Shown here: positions 19,977-35,757 of the stretch, piece after piece
Numbering within the stretch: the first letter of the stretch is position 1
Layout: every line of letters begins with the position of its first letter
DNA from: Bacteroidales bacterium
GTDB lineage: Bacteria; Bacteroidota; Bacteroidia; Bacteroidales; VadinHA17
Assembly (NCBI GenBank): GCA_003141415.1
Contig: PLLX01000228.1
Span: forward strand, 1-35,757
Direction: 5' to 3'
Length of the DNA stretch: 35,757 bases
Notes under the pieces: generated by a model
The model's database searches: none
What the model saw: the letters and a program-made list of their open reading frames with translations, nothing else
What the model was told of the DNA's origin: nothing
Position numbers and translations under genes: made by a program

Positions 19977-20067
19977 ATTTATTTGCAATAATTTGCAAAG
20001 GAATTCAATAAAGACTATTATTCAATGAAAAAATCGGTAATATCATAGAATTTACCGGTAAGAGCAA

Positions 20068-20418
20068 TTATCGGCTCATAACAACATTAACCGAACCGAT
20101 CTTTCCGCCCATAGGAGGATTCATTTTCGAAACTTTAACTGTTATCTTCTCTACCCCCTCCATCTCGGCATAGATTGCATCCAGAATCCTCCCGGCGATA
20201 TGTTCAAGCAGATGCGATTTCATCTCCATTTGTGATTTAACAATATCGTATACTCTCTGATAATTGACTGCATCTTTAAGGTTATCACTAGCCGCAGGTA
20301 CCTTCATATCTGTTTCAATTATAAGGTCCACAAGAAACTTGTTCCCTACAATACGCTCTTCCTTAAAATGACCGTGAAAAGAGTAAAACTCCATATTTTC
20401 GATCTGGATAAGTCCCAT
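20068..20418 (-). CDS. folB: Dihydroneopterin aldolase
   Basis: 116 residues, the normal length. It cleaves 7,8-dihydroneopterin to 6-hydroxymethyl-dihydropterin and glycolaldehyde in folate synthesis. Family features are FYSFHGHFKEER near the N-terminus, NYQRVYDIV (Tyr of the pterin pocket), HLLEHIAGRI with the conserved Glu, and the C-terminal Lys in KVSKMNPPMGG. Some members also epimerise dihydroneopterin. No other folate gene is in view. It is divergent from the 195-aa membrane protein gene, with 146 bases between them. Confidence 0.93.
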   Translation of the reverse strand: MGLIQIENMEFYSFHGHFKEERIVGNKFLVDLIIETDMKVPAASDNLKDAVNYQRVYDIVKSQMEMKSHLLEHIAGRILDAIYAEMEGVEKITVKVSKMNPPMGGKIGSVNVVMSR

Positions 20419-20484
20419 TTGTTTTATATTTTTAAATAAGTCGCTTGAAAATCAATAACCTTATAAAAAATAATTCATTATTTA

Positions 20485-20516
20485 TTTGGTTTATATTATA
20501 AACTAGTTTATATTAG
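20485..20516 (+). promoter_or_regulatory. Promoter with embedded palindromic operator candidate
   Basis: TTTG at 20485-20488 and TATATTAG at 20509-20516 are 20 bases apart, near the Bacteroidota -33/-7 arrangement (the -7 box deviates from TAnnTTTG). The spacer holds a perfect 15-base palindrome GTTTATATTATAAAC (20489-20503), and its first ten bases GTTTATATTA recur at 20506-20515. The likely binder is the winged-helix protein encoded second in this operon; this is inference. Confidence 0.5.
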
Positions 20517-20564
20517 TGACATATTTACATTCATAGTTACTAAAATATAAAAATAAACATTATT

Positions 20565-21152
20565 ATGGAAAACGAGGAAAAAATGATGACGGGCGAAGAA
20601 AGCCTTAAAATCATAACAGAAATGATCAACAGAACTAAAGTCAACATCAACCAGGGAAGTTTTCATCTGCTCTTCTGGGGGTGGCTCTTAACCGTTTGCA
20701 GCCTTTCCGCCTGGCTTCTTGCAAAATATACAGGTTATTCTCATCCTTATTTTGTGTGGTTTCTGGTGATTCCGGGCTCATTTGTATCCATGATCTATGG
20801 ATTTGTAAACGGGCGAAAAGCAAAGGTTCACACCTATGCCGAGATGCTGTATATGTGGACATGGATTGGATTTCTTTTCGCAGCTATCGTCCTTTTTATT
20901 GTACAGGCGAAAAGTATGCAAACAGTCACTCCATATATTCTCTTACTTGCAGGATTCCCAACATTTCTTTCGGGATTCATTATCAAATTCAAACCCCTTA
21001 TTATAGGCGGCATCTGTTTCTGGATAATGGCGCTTCTTGTTAATTTTGCCGGACCCTCTCTTGCTCCGTTAGGCACGCCGATAGCGGTGCTCATTGGTTA
21101 TCTTATTCCGGGATATATGTTAAAAACCAGAGTAAATCATGACACGATTTAA
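20565..21152 (+). CDS. Multi-pass membrane protein of unknown function
   Basis: 195 residues with a charged N-terminus (about 1-30) and five to six hydrophobic segments: about 32-50, 58-75, 92-110, 118-135, 140-158 and 163-180. It has no enzyme motif I recognise. The stop overlaps by 14 bases the start of a winged-helix regulator gene, a pairing that I recall recurring in Bacteroidota genomes. A regulated membrane protein, or a membrane partner controlling the regulator, is possible. The palindromic promoter upstream suggests autoregulation of the pair. Confidence 0.8.
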   Translation: MENEEKMMTGEESLKIITEMINRTKVNINQGSFHLLFWGWLLTVCSLSAWLLAKYTGYSHPYFVWFLVIPGSFVSMIYGFVNGRKAKVHTYAEMLYMWTWIGFLFAAIVLFIVQAKSMQTVTPYILLLAGFPTFLSGFIIKFKPLIIGGICFWIMALLVNFAGPSLAPLGTPIAVLIGYLIPGYMLKTRVNHDTI

Positions 21153-21441
21153 GGAACTCGACCCCATATTGCATTCGCAGTTGCGTCTCGCAATCGTTTC
21201 TCTGCTGGTCGGTTCAGAGGTTGCCGAATTCACATACATCAGGGAACAGACGGGGGCAACAGCCGGAAATCTAAGTATCCAGATTACAAAATTAAAAGAG
21301 TCCGGATATATTGAGGTGACAAAAAAATTCAGGAACAACTATCCTCAAACACTCTGCAGTATAACTCCGCTGGGTAGAGAGAAGTTCGCAGAATATGTCA
21401 ATACTCTTAAAGATTACCTGAGACCTGAAGGGAAAGTTTGA
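21139..21441 (+). CDS. Winged-helix transcriptional regulator (HTH_34-like)
   Basis: 100 residues, essentially one winged-helix domain. LDPILHSQLRLAIVSLLVG forms the first helices, then the recognition region TGATAGNLSIQITKLKESGY and a wing EVTKKFRNNYPQTLCSITPLG. The pattern matches the small MarR/ArsR-like family (PF13601) that acts as a dimeric repressor. Start ATG 21139 lies inside the preceding membrane-protein gene, so the two are translationally coupled. The likely target is the palindrome at 20489-20503. No metal-binding cysteine cluster is visible. Confidence 0.88.
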   Translation: MTRFKELDPILHSQLRLAIVSLLVGSEVAEFTYIREQTGATAGNLSIQITKLKESGYIEVTKKFRNNYPQTLCSITPLGREKFAEYVNTLKDYLRPEGKV

Positions 21442-21465
21442 AGTTATTCCTAAAAGCTCATCCCC

Positions 21466-21554
21466 CCGACGATACCGTCGGTGACACAAATGTGGCAGTA
21501 TATGAATAACCTTCTGCGAAAACGGGGGTTATTCATATATGGCTCTTTCAGAGC
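21466..21554 (+). other. Three consecutive hairpins before glnS
   Basis: The 235-base gap after the regulator gene holds three perfect inverted repeats: CCGACG/CGTCGG (21466-21471 with 21476-21481), a 13-base stem (21499-21511 with 21527-21539, loop 15) and GCTCT/AGAGC (21542-21546 with 21550-21554). None is followed by a U-run. They lie upstream of the glnS -7 box, so they probably belong to the 3' end of the regulator transcript or to a decayed palindromic element. Confidence 0.5.
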
Positions 21555-21648
21555 TGCGGTGAACCTTCCGACCATATTATAGATGTCATAATTCGATAAT
21601 CAACAGAAAAAATCTAAATTTAAAAGATTGATGATCTCAAATTCATTC

Positions 21649-21656
21649 TATTTTTG
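21649..21656 (+). promoter_or_regulatory. glnS -7 promoter box
   Basis: TATTTTTG matches the Bacteroidota -7 consensus TAnnTTTG exactly and lies 20 bases before the glnS start codon. The -33 region is only a partial match (ATTG, 18 bases upstream). Confidence 0.5.
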
Positions 21657-21676
21657 TAATCTTAATATTATCTGGG

Positions 21677-23380
21677 ATGAGCGACGAAATCATAAAGGAA
21701 AAAGAAGAAACTAAACCCTCAATAAGTTTTATTGAACAATTTATTGTTGAAGATTTAAAATGCGGGAAAAATAACGGGAAGGTTATTACACGTTTTCCCC
21801 CGGAGCCTAACGGTTATCTTCATATCGGCCACGCCAAAGCAATCTGTCTCGATTTTGGTATGGCACAAAAACACGGGGGAAAATGCAACCTTCGTTTCGA
21901 CGATACCAACCCTGTAAAAGAAGAAGTTGAATATATTGACTCAATTAAGGAAGATATCCATTGGCTGGGATTTGACTGGGATGACAGAGAATATTATGCT
22001 TCGGATTATTTTGGCAAATTGTACGATTTTGCTGTGGATCTTATAAAAAGAGGTCTTGCTTACGTTGATGATCAGGCTGCCGATCTGATCTCTTCCCAGA
22101 AAGGGACTCCGTCACAACCCGGTACTTTGAGTCCATTCCGCGACCGTACGGTTAAGGAGAATCTTGACCTTTTCGATAGAATGAATAAAGGAGCATTCGA
22201 TGAGGGTAGCCATGTACTCAGAGCAAAAATTGATATGACCTCTCCGAACATGCATATGCGCGACCCTATTATTTACAGAATCATTAAATCATCTCATCAC
22301 CGTACCGGCAGTAAGTGGGTTGTATACCCGATGTATGATTTTGCACATGGTCAGAGCGACTACTTTGAGGGGATCACGTATTCACTTTGCACACTTGAAT
22401 TTGAGGTTCACCGTCCGCTCTACGATTGGTTCATCGATCAGCTTAAAACCGATGATTACAGACCGAGGCAGATCGAGTTTAACCGCCTTAATCTGAACTA
22501 TACTATGATGAGCAAAAGAAAATTGCTAGAACTGGTTCAGGAGGGAAAAGTAAGAGGATGGGACGATCCGAGAATGCCAACGTTATGTGGTTTGAGAAGA
22601 AGAGGATACACCCCCGAGTCGATAAAAAGGTTTGTTGACCTGATTGGTTATACCAAGGTCGAAGCCATTAATGATGTTTCCCTGCTTGAACACGCAATTC
22701 GTGAAGATCTTAATATAAAAGCCCCCAGAGTATTTGGTGTTTTGAATCCGCTGAAAGTTATTATTAAAAACTATCCGGAAGGGAAGGTTGAAAATGTCGG
22801 ACTCATAAATAATCCTGAAGACGAAACGATGGGGAAACGACTGGTGCCATTCAGCCGGGAGGTTTATATTGAACAGGATGATTTTATGGAGATACCTCCG
22901 CATAAATTTTTCCGTCTTGCCCCGGGCATGGAAGTGCGTCTTAAAGGAGCATATATCATTAAATGTGAGGGTTTTAAGAAGAACGAAATCACCGGGGCAA
23001 TTGAAGAGGTCTATTGTACTTATGACCCTTATACAAAAAGTGGTGAAAGTACATCAGATAAAAAGGTTAAGGGAACTTTGCACTGGGTGTCGGCACAACA
23101 TGCTGTTGATGCGGAGGTAAGATTATATGACAGGTTATTCAATCATGAAGATCCCGCAGGACAAAGATGTGAAGACTACCGGAAATTTCTGAATCCCGAT
23201 TCATTAAAAATCCTCACAGGTTGCAAAGTTGAGCCCTCGCTTGGATTGGCAAAGCCGCTCGAAAAGTTTCAGTTTCAAAGACTTGGTTATTTCTGTGTCG
23301 ATTATGACTCCACATCGTCAAAGCTGGTTTTTAACAGGACGGTGCAGCTTAAGGATACATGGTCGAAGATCAATAAATAA
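21677..23380 (+). CDS. glnS: Glutaminyl-tRNA synthetase
   Basis: 567 residues, the usual size. It charges tRNA-Gln with glutamine. The class I signatures are present: PPEPNGYLHIGHAKA (HIGH) and MMSKRKL (KMSKS variant). DDTNP, VYPMYDFAHGQSD and TLEFEVHRPLYDW are typical of GlnRS rather than GluRS, and the C-terminal half carries the two anticodon-binding beta-barrels. A perfect -7 box precedes it, and a strong terminator follows 103 bases after the stop. The gene for tRNA-Gln(CUG) begins 169 bases downstream, so enzyme and cognate tRNA are neighbours. Confidence 0.97.
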   Translation: MSDEIIKEKEETKPSISFIEQFIVEDLKCGKNNGKVITRFPPEPNGYLHIGHAKAICLDFGMAQKHGGKCNLRFDDTNPVKEEVEYIDSIKEDIHWLGFDWDDREYYASDYFGKLYDFAVDLIKRGLAYVDDQAADLISSQKGTPSQPGTLSPFRDRTVKENLDLFDRMNKGAFDEGSHVLRAKIDMTSPNMHMRDPIIYRIIKSSHHRTGSKWVVYPMYDFAHGQSDYFEGITYSLCTLEFEVHRPLYDWFIDQLKTDDYRPRQIEFNRLNLNYTMMSKRKLLELVQEGKVRGWDDPRMPTLCGLRRRGYTPESIKRFVDLIGYTKVEAINDVSLLEHAIREDLNIKAPRVFGVLNPLKVIIKNYPEGKVENVGLINNPEDETMGKRLVPFSREVYIEQDDFMEIPPHKFFRLAPGMEVRLKGAYIIKCEGFKKNEITGAIEEVYCTYDPYTKSGESTSDKKVKGTLHWVSAQHAVDAEVRLYDRLFNHEDPAGQRCEDYRKFLNPDSLKILTGCKVEPSLGLAKPLEKFQFQRLGYFCVDYDSTSSKLVFNRTVQLKDTWSKINK

Positions 23381-23483
23381 AACCGGCTTACGGTGTGCGA
23401 CATGCGGTATGCGGTTCTGTATCAACGTTATTTAGGTATTGACTAACAACCAACCAGCAACTGTTACCGAGGAATCAGGAACC

Positions 23484-23517
23484 AAAGATTAAGAATTTTC
23501 GTACCTTAATCTTTTTT
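23484..23517 (+). terminator. Intrinsic terminator after glnS
   Basis: A perfect 10-base stem (AAAGATTAAG at 23484-23493 with CTTAATCTTT at 23505-23514) has an 11-base loop and a run of T to 23517. Because the 5' arm starts with AAA the hairpin is A/T-based, but it has the classic form and the right place. Confidence 0.75.
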
Positions 23518-23530
23518 ACAGAAATTTTTC

Positions 23531-23538
23531 TATATTTG
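23531..23538 (+). promoter_or_regulatory. tRNA-Gln -7 promoter box
   Basis: TATATTTG fits TAnnTTTG exactly and ends 11 bases before the mature tRNA 5' end, giving a short 5' leader. No good TTTG -33 partner is present at the expected spacing. Confidence 0.55.
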
Positions 23539-23549
23539 CCCCGCAAAAT

Positions 23550-23622
23550 TGTCCCGTGGTGTAATTGGCAACACGTCTGATTCTGGATCAGAAGAGTTCA
23601 GGTTCGAAACCTGACGGGACAA
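23550..23622 (+). tRNA. tRNA-Gln, anticodon CUG
   Basis: A full cloverleaf can be drawn. The acceptor stem TGTCCCG (23550-23556) pairs with CGGGACA (23615-23621), with A at 23622 as discriminator. The D arm contains GTGT/ACAC, the anticodon stem TCTGA/TCAGA encloses loop TTCTGGA with anticodon CTG, and the T arm TCAGG-TTCGAAA-CCTGA is intact. The first pair U1-A72 is typical of glutamine tRNAs. CCA is not encoded. It reads CAG codons. Its 3' half is the duplicated target of the integrative element to the right. Confidence 0.95.
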
Positions 23623-23631
23623 CTGATAATC

Positions 23632-23665
23632 AACCACTTACGACACGTCTTGTAAGTGGTTTTTT
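23632..23665 (+). terminator. Intrinsic terminator after tRNA-Gln
   Basis: AACCACTTAC (23632-23641) pairs perfectly with GTAAGTGGTT (23652-23661) and is followed by T residues to 23665. If the element model is right, this terminator came with the element, and the original one is at 28244-28268. Confidence 0.85.
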
Positions 23666-23667
23666 CA

Positions 23668-23696
23668 TTCTTGCTAGGTTCTTGCTAGGTTTTTGG
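23668..23696 (+). repeat. Tandem 11-base repeat near the left attachment site
   Basis: TTCTTGCTAGG occurs twice back to back (23668-23678, 23679-23689), followed by TTTTTGG. Closely related tandem pairs occur at 28009-28040 and 28350-28381. Their position beside the duplicated tRNA ends suggests recombinase arm-type sites. Confidence 0.7.
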
Positions 23697-23714
23697 ATTA
23701 TTCTTGGGGGATCG

Positions 23715-23993
23715 TTATATTCTTCCCTGATACAAGTCTTCAATTGGGAAAATCATATCATAATCATTCCAATTTAGATTTCCATCTATAATCTGATACT
23801 CCTTAAACCTTGATTCATCTAAATACTTGCGGATTGATGGATGTAATGATGATTCTAAAAATGGTCTAAAGTCAACAAGCTTATTAACTCCATCACTAAA
23901 GTATATTCTAACAGCAAAATCCCCAATATACCGGACTGATTTAATCTCAATAAAATCAACGTTATAGTGCGTATATTCTTCAGTTATTTTCAC
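23715..23993 (-). CDS. DUF2442-family protein
   Basis: 92 residues with the DUF2442 pattern: an N-terminal strand region DFIEIKSVRYIGDFAVRIYFSDG, the core LVDFRPFLE, and the tail WNDYDMIFPIEDLY. The function of the family is not established. It is regularly encoded beside DUF4160 proteins, as here, and some authors predict a toxin-antitoxin-like pair with DUF2442 as the DNA-binding or antitoxin partner. It overlaps the upstream DUF4160 gene by 4 bases, so the two are translationally coupled. It lies inside the tRNA-Gln element, which fits an addiction-type module, but that role is inference. Confidence 0.85.
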   Translation of the reverse strand: MKITEEYTHYNVDFIEIKSVRYIGDFAVRIYFSDGVNKLVDFRPFLESSLHPSIRKYLDESRFKEYQIIDGNLNWNDYDMIFPIEDLYQGRI

Positions 23994-24295
23994 TTGATCC
24001 GATTATTAATCTTTTCAAACTCAATATCCTTATGGTAAACAAAGTAGTCAATCCACTTTTGAACTATTTTATCAGCATACTCTTCCAGGAACACTCTAAA
24101 ATCTTTGAGTTTGTTTCCACTTAAAGGTTTCCTATCTTTTATTGACTTTATCTTAATCTCAACAATCTTTCCATCGACTATATAAAACTCTGCCTTACTT
24201 TCAAACCCATCATATTTCCCATGAACATGAATTGGCTCATGCTCATTTGAATAGAAGAATATCAATATACCTAAGTACTCAAAGATCTTTGGCAT
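23990..24295 (-). CDS. DUF4160-family protein
   Basis: 101 residues. Family features are FEYLGILIFFYSNEHEPIHVHG near the N-terminus (the EHxPxHxHxxY-like motif typical of DUF4160), a basic middle (KIVEIKIKSIKDRKPLSG) and a helical tail. The HxH motif could bind metal or act in catalysis, so this is the likelier effector of the DUF4160/DUF2442 pair. Start ATG at 24295 follows a -7 box at 24308-24315. The biochemical activity is not known. Confidence 0.85.
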   Translation of the reverse strand: MPKIFEYLGILIFFYSNEHEPIHVHGKYDGFESKAEFYIVDGKIVEIKIKSIKDRKPLSGNKLKDFRVFLEEYADKIVQKWIDYFVYHKDIEFEKINNRIK

Positions 24296-24307
24296 TTACT
24301 TTTTTTA

Positions 24308-24339
24308 CAAAATTAATATTTTTGAGTCAGTAATACAAC
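24308..24339 (-). promoter_or_regulatory. Promoter of the DUF4160/DUF2442 pair
   Basis: On the minus strand TAATTTTG (24308-24315) matches TAnnTTTG exactly. At 24336-24339 the minus strand reads GTTG, a 3-of-4 match to TTTG, with a 20-base spacer. The leader to the ATG at 24295 would be about 10 bases. Confidence 0.5.
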
Positions 24340-24363
24340 TTCTCCGAAAAACCAAAGGCAAAA

Positions 24364-24444
24364 ATGATGAGACGTTCTATTCCCCAAGTCACAGAACACT
24401 ATCTGGCGAGTCTGGATATGGATAAAACATGGGAGATCAACTAG
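24364..24444 (+). pseudogene. Remnant of a tyrosine-recombinase C-terminus
   Basis: A 26-codon frame ends in SIPQVTEHYLASLDMDKTWE plus two residues and a TAG. This resembles the end of Bacteroidota phage-type integrases, where a GHxSI-x-x-TEHYLASL segment carries the catalytic Tyr. The His/Arg-bearing upstream part is gone: the preceding codons read only KAKMMRR. It is the only recombinase-like sequence in the element. The match is by eye from family memory and the piece is short. Confidence 0.45.
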
Positions 24445-24544
24445 GGCCTTCTTTAATCAGATTTAAATAATATTTATTCGACCCATCCTGGCTAAAAAAC
24501 ATCTTTACTGGCCTCAAACAATAAAATTAGGGGCAAAGATTTAT

Positions 24545-24943
24545 TTATTGAGTCCCGCGTGGAAGCGGGAGACCGAATCCGTAGTTATGCTCAATACAAT
24601 CAATCGCTTCATAAAGCTCCTTTTGACAAAGAACTAAATCATGCTTAGCATGACAGGTCTTGCCTTTTGGATCATTTTTATAAAGTTCTTTTAGAATTGG
24701 CAAAGCCTTCTTTGATCGGATTTGGCCTAATGTCCATATTGCCACAGTTGACCGATTAAAAGGAGAATTACTTGTATCTAACAGGTAGGCTATCAATGCA
24801 TCTTCAGCTTCACCCGGATATTTTCTTTTTGCTATATTGATATGTTCCTTTACATCATGCCTGATCCCAATAGGTATATAAATCATATAGCAAATAAACA
24901 GAGCAACAAGGCTAAAAAAAATAATAAATAGATGTCGGCTCAT
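24545..24943 (-). CDS. Membrane-anchored HEAT-like protein, copy 2
   Basis: 132 residues: an N-terminal membrane anchor (about 5-25), then an extracytoplasmic helical domain. The stretch EDALIAYLLDTSNSP, the AIWTLGQIRSKKALPILKEL helix pair and NDPKGKTC form a HEAT-repeat-like module with two conserved cysteines (KTCHAKHDLVLCQ). It is a clear paralogue of the gene 156 bases upstream, with about half the residues identical, notably AIWTLGQIRS and KALPILK. No enzymatic motif is visible. The function is unknown; HEAT-like domains usually mediate protein contact. Confidence 0.72.
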   Translation of the reverse strand: MSRHLFIIFFSLVALFICYMIYIPIGIRHDVKEHINIAKRKYPGEAEDALIAYLLDTSNSPFNRSTVAIWTLGQIRSKKALPILKELYKNDPKGKTCHAKHDLVLCQKELYEAIDCIEHNYGFGLPLPRGTQ

Positions 24944-25099
24944 GTCATTATTTTTATAATAATCATTTATTTTAAACTAAGTTATTAAATCCTGAATATC
25001 GACATTCAAAACATCCCAAAATCCTCCCTTATTTCTGGACGGTTGACTCCTTCCGATTTCATATATCCTAACTTCAATAGAAAAGAGCGTCGGAAAAAT

Positions 25100-25516
25100 T
25101 TATTTATTGAGTCTTGACCACGAGCCAAACCAGTTTTTCTCTTTTGCACCTAACCACCTATGTTCAATTGAAACAATTGCTTTATGAATCTCATATTGAC
25201 AAAGAACTGAGTTATGGAAACCTTTACATGTCTTGCCTTCAGGATCATTTTTATAAAGATATTTCAGAATTGGCAATGCCTTTTCTGATCGGATCTGGCC
25301 CAATGTCCAGATAGCTACATCTGAACGATCCTGCGGAGAATGAGATGTGTCTGACAAATATGCGATTAAAGCATCTTCTGCTTTGCCAGCATATTGCGTT
25401 TCAGCAATGTTGATTCTTTCCTTTATCCCATGTGCAATCCAAATACGCATAGTAAGAAATAAACAAATAATTAAAGCTGTAATACTTAACCCGATAATAA
25501 ACAAAATTCGTCTCAT
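25100..25516 (-). CDS. Membrane-anchored HEAT-like protein, copy 1
   Basis: 138 residues: membrane anchor at about 5-27, then the same domain as its downstream neighbour (EDALIAYLSDTSHSP, AIWTLGQIRSEKALPILKYL, KTCKGFHNSVLCQ). The two cysteines are spaced the same in both copies and may form a disulfide outside the membrane. The C-termini differ completely after the shared block, which suggests functional divergence after tandem duplication. A real, expressed pair is supported by conservation of the reading frame and of protein more than flanking DNA. The family is unrecognised. Confidence 0.72.
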   Translation of the reverse strand: MRRILFIIGLSITALIICLFLTMRIWIAHGIKERINIAETQYAGKAEDALIAYLSDTSHSPQDRSDVAIWTLGQIRSEKALPILKYLYKNDPEGKTCKGFHNSVLCQYEIHKAIVSIEHRWLGAKEKNWFGSWSRLNK

Positions 25517-25669
25517 GTTTTTATATATTTATGATTGACAAATTATAACCGAAGTTACCATATCCCTGTATTATAGTGATCCAATCCTATTTTACTTTTA
25601 AGCCAAAAACACTTTCATTTTTACACGTGCTCTTATTAAAAATTCCAATAAACATTAGCTTGCCAGCTA

Positions 25670-26602
25670 TCAATTATTCTTAAATTTATACAAAGCAGTG
25701 ACCGAGAATACAAAAAGCACTACAAAACAATAAAACGGCAATAACAAAACTGTAATTACTCCTGAAATGTCAATTTTACCAAATACATCCGGAATTTTAT
25801 GAAAATAGAAGATAGCCAGACCGATTGTCAATCCAAGCGAGACCAATAATGCAACTAACCCTGATCTGTTGATATTGGAATATTGTTTCTCATCATACCA
25901 TCCCGACCTTTTATCTCTAAAATATCTGATCCCCCAACCGGCTAATGAAAGCAGATATGGCAAAAGAACAATACAGTAAGGGATAATCTTATAGGCTATT
26001 TTCAGTCGGACAACATTGTAGGCCTGTGAAAAAAATAAAACCAATAAAATGCCCACAACGCCACAAACAATTCCAATAATGTTCATAGCAACAAAAATTT
26101 GTTCCCTTGATATGCTTTTTGTTGTTATATATTTGTCTCCGTTTTTGTATAATACCATGAAATAAATAAAAGAATATAGAAAGAAGGAGAGTAAAACTAT
26201 TTGTGTCGCCCATGCAAATCTTAACATTGAGCTATATGGGTCCTTATATTGAAAATCTTCTTCAAGCTGATCTAATGCCACCAAATGAAAAAGTAAAAAA
26301 ATTAGTGAAATAACCCCGAAGACTGTTAAAATAATTCCTGCCAAGGATATACCCGGCGATTTCTTCAAACTAATAATAGCTGACAGAATTATTACAAGGT
26401 GGTTGATGAAAAGAATCAAGAGTCCAACAGACATCAGATTTACAAAAATTTTTGGCCTTATAAATAACTTTTCTATTTGAAGATACATTGAAGAATTATA
26501 TCCTAACCAAACAAGACTTACAAATGCCAAAACCATACAGATCAGGATCAGAGTTTTTGCATGTGTTTTCATTCTCGTTAATTTTTTGTTATTGATTTTC
26601 AA
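25670..26602 (-). CDS. Eight-helix membrane protein, paralogue B
   Basis: 310 residues with about eight hydrophobic segments: roughly 13-33, 48-70, 81-103, 130-150, 170-192, 205-222, 247-267 and 280-303. A cytoplasmic-looking loop carries RDKRSGWYDEKQ, and the C-terminus reads LLPFYCFVVLFVFSVTALYKFK. The upstream gene encodes a protein with the same loop (PYDEKQ) and tail (LPLYLFATLLVFSISVL), so they are tandem paralogues. The gap to that gene is 25 bases. I recognise no transporter or enzyme motif. It is probably expressed with the XRE regulator that heads this operon. Confidence 0.72.
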   Translation of the reverse strand: MKINNKKLTRMKTHAKTLILICMVLAFVSLVWLGYNSSMYLQIEKLFIRPKIFVNLMSVGLLILFINHLVIILSAIISLKKSPGISLAGIILTVFGVISLIFLLFHLVALDQLEEDFQYKDPYSSMLRFAWATQIVLLSFFLYSFIYFMVLYKNGDKYITTKSISREQIFVAMNIIGIVCGVVGILLVLFFSQAYNVVRLKIAYKIIPYCIVLLPYLLSLAGWGIRYFRDKRSGWYDEKQYSNINRSGLVALLVSLGLTIGLAIFYFHKIPDVFGKIDISGVITVLLLPFYCFVVLFVFSVTALYKFKNN

Positions 26603-26627
26603 TTAGTGTTTGATTTTCAATCGACGA

Positions 26628-27539
26628 TCATGATTTTTTAAAATTACGTAAGACCGATATTGAAAATACTAGTAATGTGGCAAATAAATACAGTGGCAGA
26701 TAAACCATTTTAGATATTTCTCCCACCCTTCCATTATCAATCAGGAAATAAATTATAACAATGGGAATAGACAGAAGCCAGGTAATGAGTCCTGACATAG
26801 CCAGATCATGTTTTTGCTTTTCGTCATAGGGTTCTGGATTTTCTTCTCGGATCAATTTGATTATCCAATAAAGTATAATGGATATATAGGGCAGGAAAAT
26901 TACAAGGCAAAATAAATTCGTAATTACAATGTCGGACTTGGATATGACATGATGATTATGACTTAAAACAAGACAAACAAAAAGAATGAATCCTAATCCG
27001 ATTGAACTGCATACAATACCAATGTACTGGATAACTTCAAAAATTGTTTCATCTATTACCGATTTTCTTTTTGTTAGCGATGTCCTGACTTCCCGTCTTA
27101 TTTTAATAATTGTAATTAAGCCAATGATATAGAAAATGAAATTAATTATTAAGCCCATCTTGAGAAATGACCATTCATTACTTGTGTCGGGTTCACCTTG
27201 AAAAATGTCATGCAGAGCAGCCCAGTCACTAAACATGCAAAGAATGGTAAAAAATCCAGTGATAAAGATAAAATATGCTAATGAGTTGATTCTCACATTA
27301 TTTTTAAGAGTCTGGTACAATAAGATTCCAAAGAAAATCAGAAGGATAAACTTCAGGAAATTGCCTATAGCAATTCCAGTGTATATAGAATCACGGGATG
27401 AAATACTTTCACTGATCTCACCGTAAGCAAATATCTTGTAAAACAGCCACAAAAACGAAATCAGCAATAAGATCAATGTTATAAGTGAGATGATCTGAGT
27501 TTTCGTGTTTTGTTTCGATGGTAAAACTTCAGGCTTCAT
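26628..27539 (-). CDS. Eight-helix membrane protein, paralogue A
   Basis: 303 residues with about eight hydrophobic segments: roughly 16-35, 52-72, 85-105, 128-146, 168-190, 203-224, 247-265 and 275-297. It shares with paralogue B the loop PYDEKQ before a SGLxxxLLS helix and the ending LPLYLFATLLVFS. It starts 6 bases after the stop of the XRE regulator, so regulator and membrane proteins form one transcript. A small XRE protein followed by membrane proteins recalls YozG/DUF2975 pairs, but these proteins are twice that length. The function is unknown. Confidence 0.74.
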   Translation of the reverse strand: MKPEVLPSKQNTKTQIISLITLILLLISFLWLFYKIFAYGEISESISSRDSIYTGIAIGNFLKFILLIFFGILLYQTLKNNVRINSLAYFIFITGFFTILCMFSDWAALHDIFQGEPDTSNEWSFLKMGLIINFIFYIIGLITIIKIRREVRTSLTKRKSVIDETIFEVIQYIGIVCSSIGLGFILFVCLVLSHNHHVISKSDIVITNLFCLVIFLPYISIILYWIIKLIREENPEPYDEKQKHDLAMSGLITWLLSIPIVIIYFLIDNGRVGEISKMVYLPLYLFATLLVFSISVLRNFKKS

Positions 27540-27545
27540 AGGATT

Positions 27546-27785
27546 TCATTTTAGCTTTTTATATAGTGACTTATCCGTCTCATCATTGACCAGATAAAAT
27601 ATTTCTTCTACATTTTTTTCAAAATATCGCGAAATTTTGAATGCCAGTAAGGTCGACGGTATGAATTTCCCCTTTTCAATTGAATGAATGGTCTGCCTCG
27701 TAACACCTATTGCATCTGCCAGATCCTCCTGTGACATTTCGTCTTTATCAAACCGGCACCGTCTTATATTATTACCTAAATTCAT
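27546..27785 (-). CDS. Small XRE-family transcriptional regulator
   Basis: 79 residues from ATG 27785. One Cro/C1-type helix-turn-helix fills residues 5-60 (MSQEDLADAIGVTRQTIHSI), then FEKNVEEIFYL, typical of the compact YozG-like regulators. A longer frame reaches up to 27905, but the promoter at 27807-27838 lies inside that extension and the extra residues look random, so I prefer the short form. A perfect palindrome AATGTACATT (27821-27830) between the promoter boxes, plus a half copy at 27789-27795, suggests autoregulation. It heads the operon with the two membrane paralogues. Confidence 0.88.
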   Translation of the reverse strand: MNLGNNIRRCRFDKDEMSQEDLADAIGVTRQTIHSIEKGKFIPSTLLAFKISRYFEKNVEEIFYLVNDETDKSLYKKLK

Positions 27786-27806
27786 GCTATGTACAGTATG
27801 TAATAA

Positions 27807-27838
27807 CAAATGTATACCATAATGTACATTTATGCAAA
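27807..27838 (-). promoter_or_regulatory. Promoter of the XRE-membrane protein operon with palindromic operator
   Basis: On the minus strand TTTG (27835-27838) and TACATTTG (27807-27814) are 20 bases apart, an exact Bacteroidota promoter. The spacer holds the palindrome AATGTACATT (27821-27830), and ATGTACA recurs at 27789-27795 just before the start codon. Confidence 0.72.
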
Positions 27839-28008
27839 TATATTTTACAGTAACTGAGTAAAAAATGTACCAGGAATAATTTACAAATGAATAATATCCC
27901 GTCATTTATAATTAATTACATCCTAAGTTTCTACTCAATAGGAATAAGTTTAGATACAGGAAAATGACTTTTATAACAGCCTCCGTCCAGAAAAACAAGT
28001 GGGTTCTA

Positions 28009-28040
28009 TTTCTTGCCAGGTTTCTTGCCAGGTTTTGGGG
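28009..28040 (+). repeat. Tandem 12-base repeat inside the right end of the element
   Basis: TTTCTTGCCAGG occurs twice without a gap (28009-28020, 28021-28032) and is followed by TTTTGGGG. It is the counterpart of the repeat pair at 23668-23696 and lies 96 bases before the distal tRNA fragment. The rest of 27839-28135 shows no gene. Confidence 0.7.
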
Positions 28041-28135
28041 ATAACAGGTATTAAATAATGGAAATGTAAGGATTTTATCTTTACACAATAAATTTAATAA
28101 TCAATGTGTTAAGTTAAGATTATTATATTAATGAA

Positions 28136-28239
28136 TGATTCTGGATCAGAAGGCCACTCCTGCAGTCTGGCTCCTCCCTAAAATTGCCCACAGGGCAATT
28201 TCTTAACGGTCGTCCCGGTTCGAAACCTGACGGGACAAC
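28136..28239 (+). pseudogene. Partial tRNA-Gln copy (right attachment site), interrupted
   Basis: Bases 28136-28152 equal the tRNA anticodon arm (23578-23594), and 28217-28239 equal its T-loop to 3' end (23601-23623). The 5' half (acceptor strand and D arm) is missing, so it cannot be a tRNA. The six bases that join the blocks in the intact gene are replaced by 64 bases containing a palindromic element. Confidence 0.85.
28161..28216 (+). repeat. Small palindromic element, copy 1
   Basis: The core AAATTGCCC/GGGCAATTT (28181-28189 with 28193-28201) has loop ACA. Flanks CAGTCTGGCTCCT and ACGGTCGTCC match copy 2 at the same offsets. It splits the distal tRNA fragment. Confidence 0.7.
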
Positions 28240-28243
28240 ACAT

Positions 28244-28268
28244 AGCCGGTTTCTTTAACCGGCTTTTT
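28244..28268 (+). terminator. Terminator following the distal tRNA fragment
   Basis: AGCCGGTT (28244-28251) pairs with AACCGGCT (28257-28264) across a 5-base loop, then T to 28268. It is probably the original terminator of the tRNA-Gln gene before insertion. Confidence 0.85.
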
Positions 28269-28288
28269 CATACACTGGTTCAAGACTT

Positions 28289-28347
28289 TGCGCAGGCTGT
28301 CTCCTTTACTAAAAATGCCCGCAGGGCATTTTCTATACGCTCGGCCC
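28289..28347 (+). repeat. Small palindromic element, copy 2
   Basis: The core AAAATGCCC/GGGCATTTT (28312-28320 with 28324-28332) has loop GCA. Flanks CAGGCTGTCTCCT and ACGCTCGGCC align with copy 1. The two copies differ in the stem by compensating changes, so pairing is conserved. Confidence 0.7.
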
Positions 28348-28349
28348 TA

Positions 28350-28381
28350 TTTGTTGCCAGATTGTTGCTAGGTTTTGGTGG
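28350..28381 (+). repeat. Third, more diverged TTGCYAG tandem pair
   Basis: TTTGTTGCCAGA (28350-28361) then TTGTTGCTAGG (28362-28372) and TTTTGGTGG. It lies outside the distal tRNA fragment. The stretch 28382-28589 that follows holds no gene I can support. Confidence 0.55.
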
Positions 28382-28589
28382 ATGTAACGATTATAACTGA
28401 GGTTAACAACCATCTGTTTAAACTCCCGATCATACTTTATCATACTTTCTTCTTTTCATAATCTGTTAAGTTGATTAGTTTAACTTTCTGTCCGGATTAA
28501 GGTTGCAGTTCCAAAATCCACATAATAGATTTCAAAGACATATAATGTAGATACTGCTCTGAATGATAAACTTTTAATTATTAATTAAT

Positions 28590-28745
28590 TTAAAGTGCTC
28601 TCCTACCTTGAAGAAGTCTGATGATAATTGCGATAATTGCAATAACAAGTAGAATGTGTATAATGCCTCCTGTACTATAGGCAAAAAATCCGATTGCCCA
28701 TACAATAATTAAAATTACTGCAACAATGTAAAGTAAATTTCCCAT
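28590..28745 (-). CDS. lmo0937-family small membrane protein (51 aa)
   Basis: ATG at 28743-28745 to TAA at 28590-28592. The product starts MGNLLYIVAVILIIVWAIGF, has a Gly-Gly turn (STGGIIH) and a second hydrophobic helix, and ends RLLQGRRAL. This two-helix pattern is the widespread lmo0937 family, conserved in length, of unknown function and often stress-inducible. It lies 31 bases downstream of the beta-barrel gene on the same strand, so the two may be cotranscribed. Confidence 0.82.
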   Translation of the reverse strand: MGNLLYIVAVILIIVWAIGFFAYSTGGIIHILLVIAIIAIIIRLLQGRRAL

Positions 28746-28776
28746 GGCTATTATTAAATTGTTTGGAAGCGTTTTC

Positions 28777-29406
28777 TTAAAATCTGAATCCTAAAGTGGC
28801 CTGGTACCAAACATTTTTGTAACGGGGATTTGAAGATGTTCCATCTCCCTTATTATCCTGAATGTCCCACCCGCCTCTTAGGCTAAGTACAAGTTTGCTA
28901 AGGTTAATATCAGCACCTCCAAGGAAACAAAAAGTATTTTTACGGAGATTATCATTATTAAACTCTTGTGTTAAGCTTGTATTAGCCAATACATCCCTTT
29001 GTTTCACCAGGTAAGAAAACTGAGGGCCGATTAGCAAGGTAAAAACTTCACTTGGTTTAAATGCGAGCAACAACGGCACATCTATATAACTTGTGGTATG
29101 GGTATATTCATAGCTAATGATGCCAAGAATTTCACCTTTTGCCTTGAATCCTTTCTGAGAAAATAATATTTCAGGTTGTAAGCCTATATATTTTCCTATA
29201 GGGATTGATAGAAAAGCCCCTCCGGCAAAACCAAATTTTGGATCTGCAACAAATCCCTCACCTTTTATGTCATATACATTTGAAAAATTAGCACCCGCTT
29301 TTAGTCCAAACATAATATTATTACGTAAATCTGTAGTGCTATCCTGTGCACTAACAAGGTTGACCAAGGAAATAACTGCCAATATCATCATCATTACTTT
29401 TTTCAT
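28777..29406 (-). CDS. Outer-membrane beta-barrel protein (PorT-like/OMP_b-brl_2)
   Basis: 209 residues from ATG 29406 (an ATG at 29415 adds three residues). A signal peptide (KKVMMMILAVISLVNLVSAQ) is followed by alternating hydrophobic strands. FGLKAGANFSNVY opens the barrel, PIGKYIGLQPEILFSQKGF and SYIDVPLLLAFKP are the family's characteristic hairpins, and the chain ends in aromatic YQATLGFRF, the usual outer-membrane insertion signal. The family forms small barrels in Bacteroidota with mostly unknown roles. No partner gene indicates a substrate. Confidence 0.9.
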   Translation of the reverse strand: MKKVMMMILAVISLVNLVSAQDSTTDLRNNIMFGLKAGANFSNVYDIKGEGFVADPKFGFAGGAFLSIPIGKYIGLQPEILFSQKGFKAKGEILGIISYEYTHTTSYIDVPLLLAFKPSEVFTLLIGPQFSYLVKQRDVLANTSLTQEFNNDNLRKNTFCFLGGADINLSKLVLSLRGGWDIQDNKGDGTSSNPRYKNVWYQATLGFRF

Positions 29407-29613
29407 AGGTATCATTTTTAAGTTTTGAATTTTTGCGTGACCTAATATCTTTTAAAGGTAATTATCACTATTTTCTAAACCATTACATATTTTTTGGAAT
29501 AAATTACATAATTCTCACATTTTGAGCGGACATCTATGATTTAAGAAAGTTACTATTAAATAGTGCGATCTCTTAAATACAAGGTTGTTGCTTTGGGGGT
29601 CAGTATTTCTAAC

Positions 29614-29700
29614 GTGCAAAAGCCAATGGCCTTGACAATAGTTGGCCGGAATAATTTGACCACCTAAAGCCGGAGTTAAATACTTGATGGTTAATTATAT
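29614..29700 (+). repeat. IS21-end-like interspersed repeat, copy 1
   Basis: Contains AAAAGCCAATGGCCTTGACA, then GTTGGCCGGAATAATTTGAC, CACC and AAAGCCGGAGTTAAATA. Two TTGAC(C)A units lie 23-24 bases apart around a GGCCGGAATAA core. It occupies the 3' gap (29407-29778) between the beta-barrel and oxidoreductase genes; nothing else is evident there. Confidence 0.65.
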
Positions 29701-29778
29701 TTATCAACCGCAGTCAGTGCAGCGTAAAAGAGGTTAAGGTGTATGGCTTTTACAGCATATTAATAGTTCCGCTGATTT

Positions 29779-31158
29779 TCAGACTTTTTCCGGAACAATA
29801 TAAGGACTACGATATTCCCTTGTGAGCATTTTGTCTGCCTGTGGATCGTTGATAAACTTTTCAGTTTCACCGTTGAACCTTAATTCCCTGCCAAGACGAT
29901 AGGAAATATTTGCCAGATGAGGCAGTACTGAGGAATAATATCCTTCCTTAATGTCACAATTCAGGGTTTCATCTTTACCTGAACGAATTGCATCAAGAAA
30001 GTTAGCCCAATGCTCTGAACCACCGGGAGCTGCCATAAAAGTTGGATCGTCCGGTTCGCTTCTGCCCTCTTTTGAGCCTGCAAAAGCAACTTTTCCCCTT
30101 TTTCTGAAAGCTTTCCATGGAGTGGCGGATTCATCGTAAAGTTCCAGATAACCTTCAGTGCCGTAAAATATATTTCCGATACGTATTCCTATATCTGATT
30201 CATCATTAGTATACCTTCCTCTTGTCTCAAACTCAAGTATTTTCCCATCATGGTACTTAAATACAGAACACTGAGTATTCGGAGTTTCCTGGGCGCACTC
30301 CTGGGGATCAATACCATATATTCCACCTGCAGAATAAACAGAAACGGGATGTTCGTTTTTGCTCATACCCCAGCGGGCAATATCAAACTCATGTGGTCCC
30401 TGATTTCCGGTATCTCCATTTCCTGTATCCCAGAACCAGTGCCAGTTATAATGACCGCGTTTCTCATTATAGGACCGCCAGGTAACAGGGCCTAACCATT
30501 GATTATAATGAAGAGTGGCAGGCGGGTCACTGTCTGGTGCAATACCAAAAGAATCACGTGGTTTGAGACAAAGACCACGAGCCATATAAATTTCACCAAT
30601 ACCTCCATCGTGAAGAAATTTAATTGCCTCGTTCAGGTTTTTACCCGAGCGGTTCTGAAATCCTACTTGAACACGCACATTGTATTTGCGCGATGCTTCA
30701 ATCATTTTTCTGCCTTCAAAAATATTATGGCAGCTTGGTTTTTCAACATAGACATGCTTACCTGACTGACAAGCCCAGATAGTTCCCAGGGCATGCCAGA
30801 AGTTGGGCGTGGCAAAGGATATTGCATGTATATCCTTATCATCGAAAACCTTACGCATATCCCATTCTGTCAAAGGTTTGATGCCGTACTTATCGAATAC
30901 TGTTTTTGCCCGAGGGGCAAAGAACTTTTCATCGACATCGCAGATAGTCTTTAACAGCACATTGTGAGAATCCTTCAGGGCACATAGGCTGTTGATGTGT
31001 TCTGCACCCCTGCCTCCGATACCAACAACAGCAATGTTAATGCGATCGTTAGCACCGAGGATTGAAGCATATGATTTAGAACTGAATCCCATGCCACCAA
31101 TGGCAATCCCGGCAGTACCCATCAGGCTTTTCTTAATAAATTCTCTTCGTTTAGTCAT
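29779..31158 (-). CDS. Tat-exported Gfo/Idh/MocA-family oxidoreductase
   Basis: 459 residues from ATG 31158. The N-terminus TKRREFIKKSLMGTAGIAIG is a twin-arginine signal, so the folded enzyme is exported with its NAD(P) cofactor. The Rossmann motif VVGIGGRGAEH and the sugar-site EKP (VEKPSCHN) define the family; the C-terminal half is the substrate-binding sheet. The longer frame from 31221 is rejected because an exact promoter (31192-31222) overlaps it. Its sugar substrate is not identifiable. It is divergent from the GH127 gene, suggesting a shared role in plant or algal glycan breakdown. Confidence 0.92.
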   Translation of the reverse strand: MTKRREFIKKSLMGTAGIAIGGMGFSSKSYASILGANDRINIAVVGIGGRGAEHINSLCALKDSHNVLLKTICDVDEKFFAPRAKTVFDKYGIKPLTEWDMRKVFDDKDIHAISFATPNFWHALGTIWACQSGKHVYVEKPSCHNIFEGRKMIEASRKYNVRVQVGFQNRSGKNLNEAIKFLHDGGIGEIYMARGLCLKPRDSFGIAPDSDPPATLHYNQWLGPVTWRSYNEKRGHYNWHWFWDTGNGDTGNQGPHEFDIARWGMSKNEHPVSVYSAGGIYGIDPQECAQETPNTQCSVFKYHDGKILEFETRGRYTNDESDIGIRIGNIFYGTEGYLELYDESATPWKAFRKRGKVAFAGSKEGRSEPDDPTFMAAPGGSEHWANFLDAIRSGKDETLNCDIKEGYYSSVLPHLANISYRLGRELRFNGETEKFINDPQADKMLTREYRSPYIVPEKV

Positions 31159-31191
31159 TTTGATTGTTGTTTTTAAATAACGGGGTAATGT

Positions 31192-31222
31192 CAAATTTAG
31201 TAAATATACATACTGCTTCAAA
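31192..31222 (-). promoter_or_regulatory. Promoter of the Gfo/Idh/MocA gene
   Basis: On the minus strand TTTG (31219-31222) and TAAATTTG (31192-31199) are 19 bases apart, an exact match to the Bacteroidota consensus, about 34 bases before the ATG at 31158. Confidence 0.72.
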
Positions 31223-31376
31223 TAATAAGCTCAATTATCGGGGAATCCCAATAATAAGTTATCAGCCGGAAAAGTCAGCAGCCCGGACCATCTCTGCTAC
31301 TAATGACTGAGACATACTTAATTAACCAAATATCAGGCATTCAACACTGGTGTAGATACAGTACACTCAGGCAACC

Positions 31377-31485
31377 CTTCACCGGAATAAATTGACCACC
31401 AAAAGCCGGAGTAAAATCTTTATTGTTTTGTATGTTATGTGTTTTCGGACTGGACAGATGGAGTCAATATGTCCGGTTTTTATAC
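31377..31485 (+). repeat. IS21-end-like interspersed repeat, copy 2
   Basis: Starts CTTCACCGGAATAAATTGAC and runs through CACC, AAAAGCCGGAGTAAAAT, TTGTTTTGTATGTTATG to GTCAATATGTCCGGTTTTTA. The last part can pair (CTGGACA with TGTCCGG) before a T-run, so it may also act as a terminator. It lies between the two divergent promoters. Confidence 0.65.
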
Positions 31486-31529
31486 TAATAACCAAAACTT
31501 TACTATTATCAATATCTGATCCTTTAAGA

Positions 31530-31561
31530 TTTGTGATATTTTGATGTAAATCATATATTTG
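31530..31561 (+). promoter_or_regulatory. Promoter of the GH127 gene
   Basis: TTTG (31530-31533) and TATATTTG (31554-31561) are 20 bases apart, both exact. The start codon follows 17 bases after the -7 box. Confidence 0.7.
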
Positions 31562-31578
31562 AAAAAAGTCAGCTTACT

Positions 31579-34200: not shown

Positions 34201-34210
34201 GTCTCTCTAA

Positions 34211-34350
34211 AAGTGGAAAAGCCAGGTCCTTGACCACTTTCTGCCGGATCATATTGACCACCAAAAACCGGAGTTAAATATATGTTGTTTGGTTATGAAT
34301 GTTAAGTGTAATCTTACCGACTTTCATAGTAGTCAAATTAGATCAGATCT
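34211..34350 (+). repeat. IS21-end-like interspersed repeat, copy 3
   Basis: Begins 11 bases after the glycosidase stop: GTGGAAAAGCCAGG, CTTGACCACTTTCTGCCGG, ATATTGACCACC, AAACCGGAGTTAAATA, then ATGTTAAGTGTAATCTTACC. A hairpin (AACCTCTG 34354-34361 with CAGAGGTT 34372-34379) follows, without a U-run. The rest of the gap to 34553 shows no gene. Confidence 0.65.
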
Positions 34351-34553
34351 CACAACCTCTGTAGATATCTGCAGAGGTTATAAGTACAATTACCATTTTT
34401 AAGCTGTTTTGAAGCCATCATTCATGAGAATCCAAGTTCCACACTTCATTATTATTTATTCTCCTAATTACTAAATGATTTATTGATTAGTGTGAATTAT
34501 TTGTTGATCTTTGATATAGGTTAAATAGAAGTGTTATTTTAAATTTTAAACTT

Positions 34554-34766
34554 ATGAAAGCATTAATAAAAGCATTTATCTGGATTGCATGGATTTCTTC
34601 AGCAATTGCAGTCGCGTTTGTCATTTTAGGAACAATTCAAGGTTTTTTCGGGAGATTGGCACACGGAACGGAGATAATAAAATATTTTCATGTTGCTAAC
34701 AGCTTCTTTCTTCTGGCAATTGTTTCACTTCTTTTTCTTCATTTAGGTCAGCATAAACAGGAATAA
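34554..34766 (+). CDS. Small two-helix membrane protein (70 aa)
   Basis: 70 residues with two hydrophobic segments (about 5-27 and 47-63). The loop between them, RLAHGTEIIKYFHVAN, and the end LFLHLGQHKQE contain several histidines. No family is recognised. The histidines placed near membrane faces could bind heme or metal, but that is only suggestive. It stands alone between two repeat copies, with clear start and stop and Bacteroidota-like AT-rich upstream sequence. Confidence 0.55.
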   Translation: MKALIKAFIWIAWISSAIAVAFVILGTIQGFFGRLAHGTEIIKYFHVANSFFLLAIVSLLFLHLGQHKQE

Positions 34767-34941
34767 GTCATTTATTTATTGATGGAGTATAATATTACCA
34801 ACCTTGTAAAATTGCCAGCATCCATTCTTCATTAATTTGCCATCCAAAATTGAAAGGCTTTATGATAGTTGGAGTGGTAGTGGCTTTTTTTCGTTTGAAC
34901 AATAATCCCATTCTGGAAGATTAGGATTCCATTCATCTATT

Positions 34942-35084
34942 TGTAAAAGCGAGTGCCTTTGACCAAAGTTGGCCGAAATAAACTGACCATCCATGGTTGG
35001 AGCTAAATGCTTGTTGTTTTGTTCTGTATGTTAAGTGTAATCTTGGCAGTCAAAAGGGATCAAGTTGTCCGGCTTTTGCATTTA
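34942..35084 (+). repeat. IS21-end-like interspersed repeat, copy 4
   Basis: GTAAAAGCGAGTGCCTTTGA, CCAAAGTTGGCCGAAATAAA, CTGACCATCC, then TTGTTGTTTTG, ATGTTAAGTGTAATCTTGGC and AAGTTGTCCGGCTTTTG. It is the longest match together with copy 3 and lies in the 435-base gap (34767-35201) that otherwise has no gene. Confidence 0.65.
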
Positions 35085-35201
35085 TAGAGCAATACCAATA
35101 CCTAATAATTAATTCAACAAATAAAATAAAAAATAAGTAGGTCGTTAAACCTTATTAGCTTTCTAATATCAAAGAGATAAATAACTATAAAACAAGATAA
35201 A

Positions 35202-35672: not shown

Positions 35673-35757
35673 TAGATGAGAATCAATAAATAATGAACAA
35701 TATTTTTAAAAATTTATTAGTCCTGTATTAAACCTTGGAACTGCTACTTTTATCCGG

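Follow-up and report, generated by a model that had tools for sequence, protein, structure and literature searches.

A probable decayed, cis-mobilizable-like element stacked at a tRNA-Gln gene of an uncultured Bacteroidales bacterium

When the 3' half of a tRNA gene recurs a few kilobases further on, the question is what displaced it and whether the DNA in between can still move. We examined this question for E1 (23578-28135), which lies between tRNA-Gln(CUG) and a displaced fragment of that gene in a window of 35,757 nucleotides, the whole of contig PLLX01000228.1 of a Bacteroidales bacterium (assembly GCA_003141415.1, VadinHA17). The element behind it, with a left end starting at 28136, is called E2. 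The window is contig C167 of a draft genome of 5.26 Mb (G000), a metagenome-assembled genome that is 81.75% complete and 3.27% contaminated. Sister species were compared through the genomes of the genus (62), and the search for integrase scraps covered 60 of them. E1 is very probably a decayed tRNA-Gln element resembling the cis-mobilizable elements (CIMEs), which has lost its integrase, was stacked by site-specific accretion and carries toxin-antitoxin-like cargo.

Attachment ends and the crossover point

The features at the two boundaries of E1 and at the beginning of E2 are as follows.

21677-23380: open reading frame (ORF) upstream of tRNA-Gln, glnS (named from sequence)
23550-23623, plus strand: tRNA-Gln(CUG), the target gene and the sole tRNA found by both ARAGORN and Rfam
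23581-23587, plus strand: TTCTGGA, the anticodon loop and putative 7-bp crossover or overlap region
23632-23661, plus strand: terminator-like hairpin after the tRNA, in the left end of E1
23671-23689, plus strand: left arm, direct repeat TTGCTAGG-TTC-TTGCTAGG, putative integrase arm sites
28011-28135, plus strand: right end of E1, conserved across species
28013-28032, plus strand: right arm pair TTGCCAGG-TTTC-TTGCCAGG, about 100 bp upstream of the core
28136-28152, plus strand: displaced tRNA fragment, block 1 (anticodon loop and 3' stem), exact 17-bp copy
28153-28216, plus strand: dispersed palindromic hairpin repeat of 64 bp, inserted between the fragment blocks
28217-28239, plus strand: displaced tRNA fragment, block 2 (T loop to 3' end), exact 23-bp copy
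28244-28264, plus strand: terminator-like hairpin, left end of E2
28292-28347, plus strand: divergent second copy of the dispersed repeat (78.6% identity)
28354-28372, plus strand: left arm of E2, the presumably older element behind E1 (E2 left end, 28240-28372)

A preliminary description of this DNA, made from its letters, had proposed an integrative element at the tRNA because two exact blocks of the gene, 17 and 23 bases long and in the same order, recur downstream with a terminator of their own and without the 5' half. Each of these observations was borne out. TGATTCTGGATCAGAAG is present in exactly two copies in the window (23578 and 28136), as is GGTTCGAAACCTGACGGGACAAC (23601 and 28217), on the same strand and with the block order kept. 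No chance match of either was seen in 100 dinucleotide shuffles, and in 300 mononucleotide shuffles of 23624-35757 the words shared with the tRNA reached a length of 13 at most. The lack of the tRNA 5' half in the distal copy is evident from direct reading of the sequence, and the hairpin at 28244-28264 answers to the terminator. As the 64 bp between the blocks are a dispersed repeat, the fragment was once whole and was split later. This repeat is found at at least nine further places in its own genome, a lower bound given that 40 of 101 first-look candidates were scored, and at more in sister species.

At the sequence level, attL (the tRNA and left arm, 23550-23689) and attR (the right end and fragment, 28011-28239) are both retained around E1. 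The attachment (att) site would be lambda-like in its organization, with a core between direct-repeat arms made of two copies of TTGCYAGG separated by 4 nt on the right and 3 nt on the left, and the arm repeats may bind the integrase. The tRNA 3' half from the anticodon loop onward would be supplied by the element as part of attL.

Sister species have ends like the left and right ends of E1 beside their own tRNA-Gln 3' halves, which bears out an integrative element. The right end (query 28005-28152) gave matches in 19 of the 62 genomes at E ≤ 0.001, some of them to the arm repeat only, and matches of at least 100 bp in 12 of the 62, its own genome included. The best copies in G031, G049, G044, G026 and G042 are 88-90% identical to the window, and the glnS 3' regions of these five genomes are 75-82% identical. 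That a non-coding end is more alike than the coding glnS points to exchange between species. Right-end identity is lower, at 75-86%, in G017, G016, G053, G010, G014 and G056. No match to it was found in phages and plasmids at E 1e-5.

The arm pattern TTGCYAGGTTN{1,2}TTGCYAGGTTTT matched 37 stretches in genome_contigs, all with record titles in the Bacteroidetes or a subgroup (25 Bacteroidales bacterium; the other 12 Bacteroidia, Bacteroidetes, Chitinophagaceae, Odoribacter or Mariniphaga). It was absent from shuffles of the window and had no match in viral_contigs. These stretches contain 44 sites, 28 with a 3-nt and 16 with a 4-nt spacer. The two classes are arranged as the two ends of E1 are: a tRNA-Gln 3' end lies within 130 nt upstream of 16 of the 28 3-nt-spacer sites, and none of the 28 has the anticodon-arm core downstream; the core lies within 150 nt downstream of 14 of the 16 4-nt-spacer sites, and none of the 16 has a tRNA end upstream.

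The position of the crossover was examined at 22 distinct junctions between a right end and a tRNA half; 12 right-end matches without a nearby core, several of them left-arm matches or truncated ends, were left out of this number. At the 22 junctions agreement with the tRNA stops at the anticodon loop; to the left of it at most TGA still matches. Since the junction search was anchored on the core, it is the non-tRNA sequence left of the loop that constitutes the evidence. At a related site an empty and an occupied form were available for comparison, namely a tRNA-Gln-like gene without an insert (G000:C264) and a right end followed by the same 3' flank (G031:C185). From the second anticodon-loop base onward, 34 of 35 positions agree between the two and the next 300 bp are 97% identical, and upstream of that base the identities are 37% and 33%; the BLAST alignment (91.7% over 701 bp) begins at the same place. 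The crossover lies in the anticodon loop, as mapped at this related site and not at the E1 insertion itself, in agreement with the anticodon-arm crossover of the preliminary description. The empty site by which that description had proposed to prove the insertion was accordingly seen at the related site and not for E1.

The displaced halves showed further regularities of their own. Sorted by eye from 60-nt strings, 8 of the 22 are split by the same hairpin-repeat family in the same direction, at a position constant within 3 nt (after GATCAG or ATCAGAAG); in 6 the T or acceptor arm is divergent or holds a different insert, a further 7 are clean and 1 is lost. The acceptor stem of the tRNA-Gln(CTG) genes in the genus starts with TGTCCCG in some and GCTCTGT in another (L128), and displaced halves of both types are present within one array (G010). 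Because the 3' strand of the tRNA is element-derived, host and element must match.

The tandem array and the integrase remnant

The left end of E2 lies directly behind the displaced half, which makes the locus a tandem array. No right end of E2 was found between 28372 and the contig end. Of 48 stretches scanned, 9 (one of them the window) have a left arm no more than 600 bp behind a right end; right-end matches ending before query base 45 were excluded as arm-only. At one such junction (G031:C63) the core is an uninterrupted 46-bp tRNA half. These junctions of right end, tRNA half and left arm look like attP sites.

The contig with the 46-bp core shares a second segment with the window. A Gfo/Idh-type oxidoreductase gene (named from sequence) and its flanks at 29618-31454 are 95.6% identical to G031:C63, and the glnS of G031 is only about 80% identical to that of the window. 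The edges of the segment match dispersed intergenic repeats. This suggests that the segment was transferred, perhaps together with the islands.

The preliminary description had attributed E1 to a tRNA-targeted recombinase, and a remnant of one is present inside the element.

24364-24444, plus strand: C-terminal remnant of a tyrosine integrase, 26 codons and a stop, reading MMRRSIPQVTEHYLASLDMDKTWEIN-stop

The remnant includes HYLASLD, which we take to be the region of the catalytic tyrosine. When a scrap query was run against the 60 genomes, 13 gave matches, among them the window itself (24358-24450, E 4.3e-7, 71% over 31 aa to the remnant in G031:C63). Of integration genes, E1 has kept nothing but this 26-codon tail, and a search of nine genomes returned no Phage_integrase match on C167. 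The same was true of the other units. Among the nine complete units (the window, L056, L058, L060, L063, L073, L083, L093 and L126, with truncated right ends in L073, L083 and L126), a home-made hidden Markov model (HMM) of the integrase found none in any. Outside these units the HMM found C-terminal scraps in other stretches. In the genus, scraps are also present on four contigs with element ends (G031:C63, G017:C117, G017:C133 and G026:C139), and one (G008:C103) lies 4.8 kb behind tRNA-Gln, where no element end was recognised. The scrap in G017:C117 runs directly into right-end sequence.

Three intact relatives of the integrase were examined. L214 (G054:C23) has 405 aa with Phage_integrase (6e-9) and Phage_int_SAM_5 (4.4e-8) domains, and lies near a tRNA-Met half starting at the anticodon loop, where the repeats are TTGGTGCCAG. 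The relative in G008:C53 has 404 aa and 47% identity, with no arm pair seen in the surrounding pieces examined. L218, of Mariniphaga sp. LH_M28, is a 409-aa frame with 44% identity; its gene ends a few bases before the arm pair TTGCCAGG-TTTT-TTGCCAGG, after which come a tRNA-Met half from CTCATAATCAG (anticodon loop), a terminator and TTGCCAGG-TTT-TTGCCAGG. In the same genome (L135) a tRNA-Met(CAU) gene is followed by a left-arm pair. Relative to the core, the L218 integrase points the same way as the scraps in the window, in G031:C63 and in G017:C117. From the arrangements of L218, the scraps, L135 and L214 we conclude that the integrase clade, the repeats and the anticodon-loop core go together. 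The tandem array, the splitting of the fragment by a genome repeat, the conserved ends and this plus-strand remnant all go beyond the preliminary description.

Several other integrases were considered and set aside. The integrase INT102 on C102 of the same bin was rejected as a helper, as the crossover of its element is in the T arm and the ends are different, and its contig, 99.8-100% identical over its own length to G010:C1, is for that reason most likely a contaminant. On the side of the L158/L220 integrase (Umea_bin-02693) the repeats are different, namely TTGTACAAAC; the integrases of L228 and L229 are broken, and L229 has TTGGTGCCAGG-like repeats. Two of these belong to further kinds of element at the same tRNA. 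The one on C102 and G010:C1 (L021 and L063) represents a second family with T-arm crossover, encoding an integrase, a helix-turn-helix (HTH) protein, an ORF2/G2P-type Rep, an AAA/OLD-like ATPase, a BglII-like protein and Abi_alpha. The L158/L220 integrase represents a third element type: it shares the tRNA-Gln core and lies immediately in front of a left arm that contains three copies of TTGCCAGG.

Cargo of E1 and of related units

The interior of E1 is AT-rich, as had been noted before: the G+C content is 0.32-0.34 in the four 1-kb bins of 24001-28000 and 0.36-0.44 in the remaining eight of 20001-32000. Its seven main ORFs are listed below.

23715-23993, minus strand: DUF2442 protein, DhiA-like antitoxin candidate (Pfam 4.3e-9; NCBIfam DhiA 0.0011, 19.5 bits against a cut-off of 200)
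23990-24295, minus strand: DUF4160 protein, DhiT-like toxin candidate (Pfam 2.8e-11; NCBIfam DhiT 3.7e-5, 24.2 bits against a cut-off of 100)
24545-24943, minus strand: HEAT-repeat-like protein, paralogue 1 (E 5.1e-6, 27.1 bits; Pfam cut-off 27.7)
25100-25516, minus strand: HEAT-repeat-like protein, paralogue 2 (64% identical to paralogue 1 over 121 aa)
25670-26572, minus strand: 300-aa membrane-like protein (judged by eye; no family match)
26628-27539, minus strand: 303-aa membrane-like protein (26% identical to the 25670-26572 protein; no family match)
27546-27785, minus strand: HTH (Cro/CI-type) regulator (HTH_3, 1.4e-12)

The earlier statement that the cargo is all on the minus strand holds for these seven and not for a few short plus-strand ORFs or the plus-strand integrase remnant. 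Pfam and NCBIfam scans found no credible conjugation or transfer gene among the seven proteins; the HTH protein matches MobT with 17 bits against a cut-off of 600.

The DUF4160 gene precedes the DUF2442 gene and overlaps it by 4 nt. The dhiTA system of Dickeya dadantii is a DUF4160/DUF2442 toxin-antitoxin pair with the toxin gene first and a short overlap, as described in the part of its report drawn on here (PMC8198452). The E1 pair, known here by its sequence, is alike in domains, order and overlap, but both NCBIfam scores are far below the DhiT and DhiA cut-offs. We consider the pair to be DhiT/DhiA-like, and it may serve to stabilise E1. The suggestion of an addiction island that has lost mobility is therefore plausible in view of the pair and its gene order, with the low scores as a reservation. 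A further copy of the pair, with 82% DNA identity and no element end seen beside it, is present elsewhere in the genome (G000:C213:24307-24921). PADLOC matched the HTH regulator alone among the seven proteins, as a generic regulator, and the defence island that had been suggested as another option found no support.

Cargo varies between the nine units, which are about 1-12 kb long, and part of the proteins of the other units was scanned. Toxin-antitoxin-like genes are present in at least five of the nine: besides E1, L060 has HicA and a weak HicB-like match, L058 a HEPN protein and a nucleotidyltransferase, and L083 a nucleotidyltransferase, and L093 has a pair classed as such because it resembles those of L083 and L058. 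The cargo of L126 includes an ORF6N protein, that of L063 an RNase II-type exonuclease together with ABC-transporter-like proteins, that of L073 a nitric-oxide-reductase-like protein, and that of L083 also a beta-lactamase-family hydrolase.

Explanations for E1 and comparison with known systems

We propose that an autonomous tyrosine-integrase element would first have entered tRNA-Gln and then decayed, and that later elements would have entered the restored tRNA, in front of the decayed one. On integration in the anticodon loop, E1 would have restored the tRNA with its own 3' half and pushed the old half to 28136. E1 would then be the youngest layer in the window, and hence younger than the E2 layer, and, while keeping both arms, would have lost the integrase and possibly some of the left end. 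A related integrase could still act on it in trans. Several observations weigh against this account. The empty site of the E1 insertion was not found, nor any flank to anchor it; among 28 tRNA-Gln loci compared, a right-flank gene family was common to at most three (flank-sharing pairs L084/L087, L085/L088 and L091/L092), and so variable a flank offers little to anchor such a site. C264, the contig with the empty related site, could be a contaminant of the bin just as C102 most likely is, and a foreign origin would leave the crossover mapping unchanged. The E1 scrap is near the left end, whereas in L218 and G017:C117 the integrase or its scrap adjoins the right end. In the genomes searched no intact integrase with E1-type arms was found at tRNA-Gln, so the pairing of arms and integrase rests on the tRNA-Met relative. 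In the stretch examined, the tRNA-Gln core was not seen at 12 of the 28 left-type and 2 of the 16 right-type sites, some of those 12 being tRNA-Met, other repeats or contig ends. Finally, a GGTCGGTGG-like inner signature, present at 30 of 40 left-arm sites, is missing from the left end of E1, which may therefore be partly deleted.

The same missing signature, the integrase tail and the repeat inserted in the displaced tRNA half would also be expected if E1 were simply the dead relic of one ordinary autonomous element (an integrative and mobilizable element, IME, or a satellite), decayed in place with arms that have yet to decay, and we give this close to an even chance. Against it stand arms and a right end conserved across species around cargo that differs between units, from which it follows that at least the family has moved repeatedly; E1 itself could still be dead, and to that extent this explanation overlaps with the one we prefer. 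Alternatively, the units could be a living family of non-autonomous cassettes, each made of two att arms and cargo, mobilised in trans by an integrase on another element, a phage or a plasmid and collected at the tRNA somewhat as in an integron. The absence of an intact integrase from all nine units with the arms kept (apart from the three truncated right ends), their differing cargo, the toxin-antitoxin-like genes in five of them and the high conservation of the right end relative to glnS in five genomes are in favor of this possibility. We consider it unlikely, because no helper emerged from the viral contigs, the phages and plasmids or 20 integrase stretches (part of the Phage_integrase places), none of which has a paired arm beside an intact integrase; moreover, the integrase scraps that lie close to tRNA-Gln in several genomes point to in-place decay, and in other genomes the right end reaches only 75-86% identity. 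The fuller claim, that a separate tyrosine integrase moves integrase-free cassettes with the same arm ends and often a toxin-antitoxin gene between species in trans and stacks them behind tRNA-Gln, every cassette carrying and renewing the tRNA-Gln 3' half, is doubtful and in our judgement rather unlikely.

The remaining two explanations were rejected. Degenerate tRNA-Gln-like copies on three contigs of the bin (C264, C265 and C70) could be taken to mean that the fragment is a segmental duplication or tRNA pseudogene produced by ordinary rearrangement without site-specific integration; because 22 distinct junctions next to one and the same 125-bp right end all break at the anticodon loop, as does the empty and occupied pair, this is extremely improbable. 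That the island serves chiefly in anti-phage defence is very unlikely as well on the PADLOC result for E1, the AAA/OLD-like, BglII-like and Abi_alpha genes at this tRNA belonging to a different element family (G010 and the contaminant contig C102). We thus favor a decayed, CIME-like element that entered a restored tRNA-Gln.

The kind of element is already known, and E1 is a new family of that kind. No description of the family was found by title or abstract in the open-licence papers searched, which is no proof of absence. Two things set the family apart from routine cases: how many integrase-free units have conserved arms, and their connection with an intact integrase clade at a different tRNA. 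The att module, defined in sequence by the right end, tRNA half and left end, provides a handle for finding integrase-less islands in uncultured Bacteroidales. As the arms are linked to a candidate integrase clade with an intact tRNA-Met member, trans-mobilisation of decayed islands becomes testable.

An integron gene cassette is defined by attC hairpin sites and the IntI integrase. The site of E1 is instead a tRNA half with arm repeats, and the L214 integrase has Phage_int_SAM_5 and Phage_integrase domains, so that E1 did not conform to this definition in an analysis without a dedicated attC search. Among known tRNA islands the anticodon-loop crossover class is well known, accounting for 2083 of 3919 islands in the sections of the Islander account considered here (PMC4383910). 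E1 shares with these islands the regenerated tRNA, the displaced 3' fragment and the anticodon-centred crossover, but it has a remnant in place of their intact integrase gene (PMC4383910). Since the Islander filters test for that gene (PMC4383910), units like E1 would probably be dropped, and integrase-testing tools of this type would probably miss integrase-less islands. The ssrA islands of Dehalococcoides are a close likeness, being stacked in tandem behind one RNA gene, with 15 lacking an integration module in the part of the source available (PMC3146451). They differ in their serine recombinases and tmRNA (ssrA) target from the tyrosine integrase and tRNA anticodon loop seen here (PMC3146451). 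CIMEs, in the portion of the text relied on, are elements in tandem behind a target gene that have lost the integration genes and kept attL and attR, described from the decay of integrative and conjugative elements (ICEs) or IMEs, and accretion is the integration of a further element at the att site adjoining the target gene (PMC5704250). In contrast to these, the units here are about 1-12 kb, their ends occur in many species of a single uncultured genus, and L214, the related integrase, has the two domains named above; no conjugation gene was found among the E1 proteins, the other units having been scanned in part. In its retained attL and attR, lost integration genes, lack of detected conjugation genes and tandem arrangement, E1 resembles a CIME (PMC5704250).

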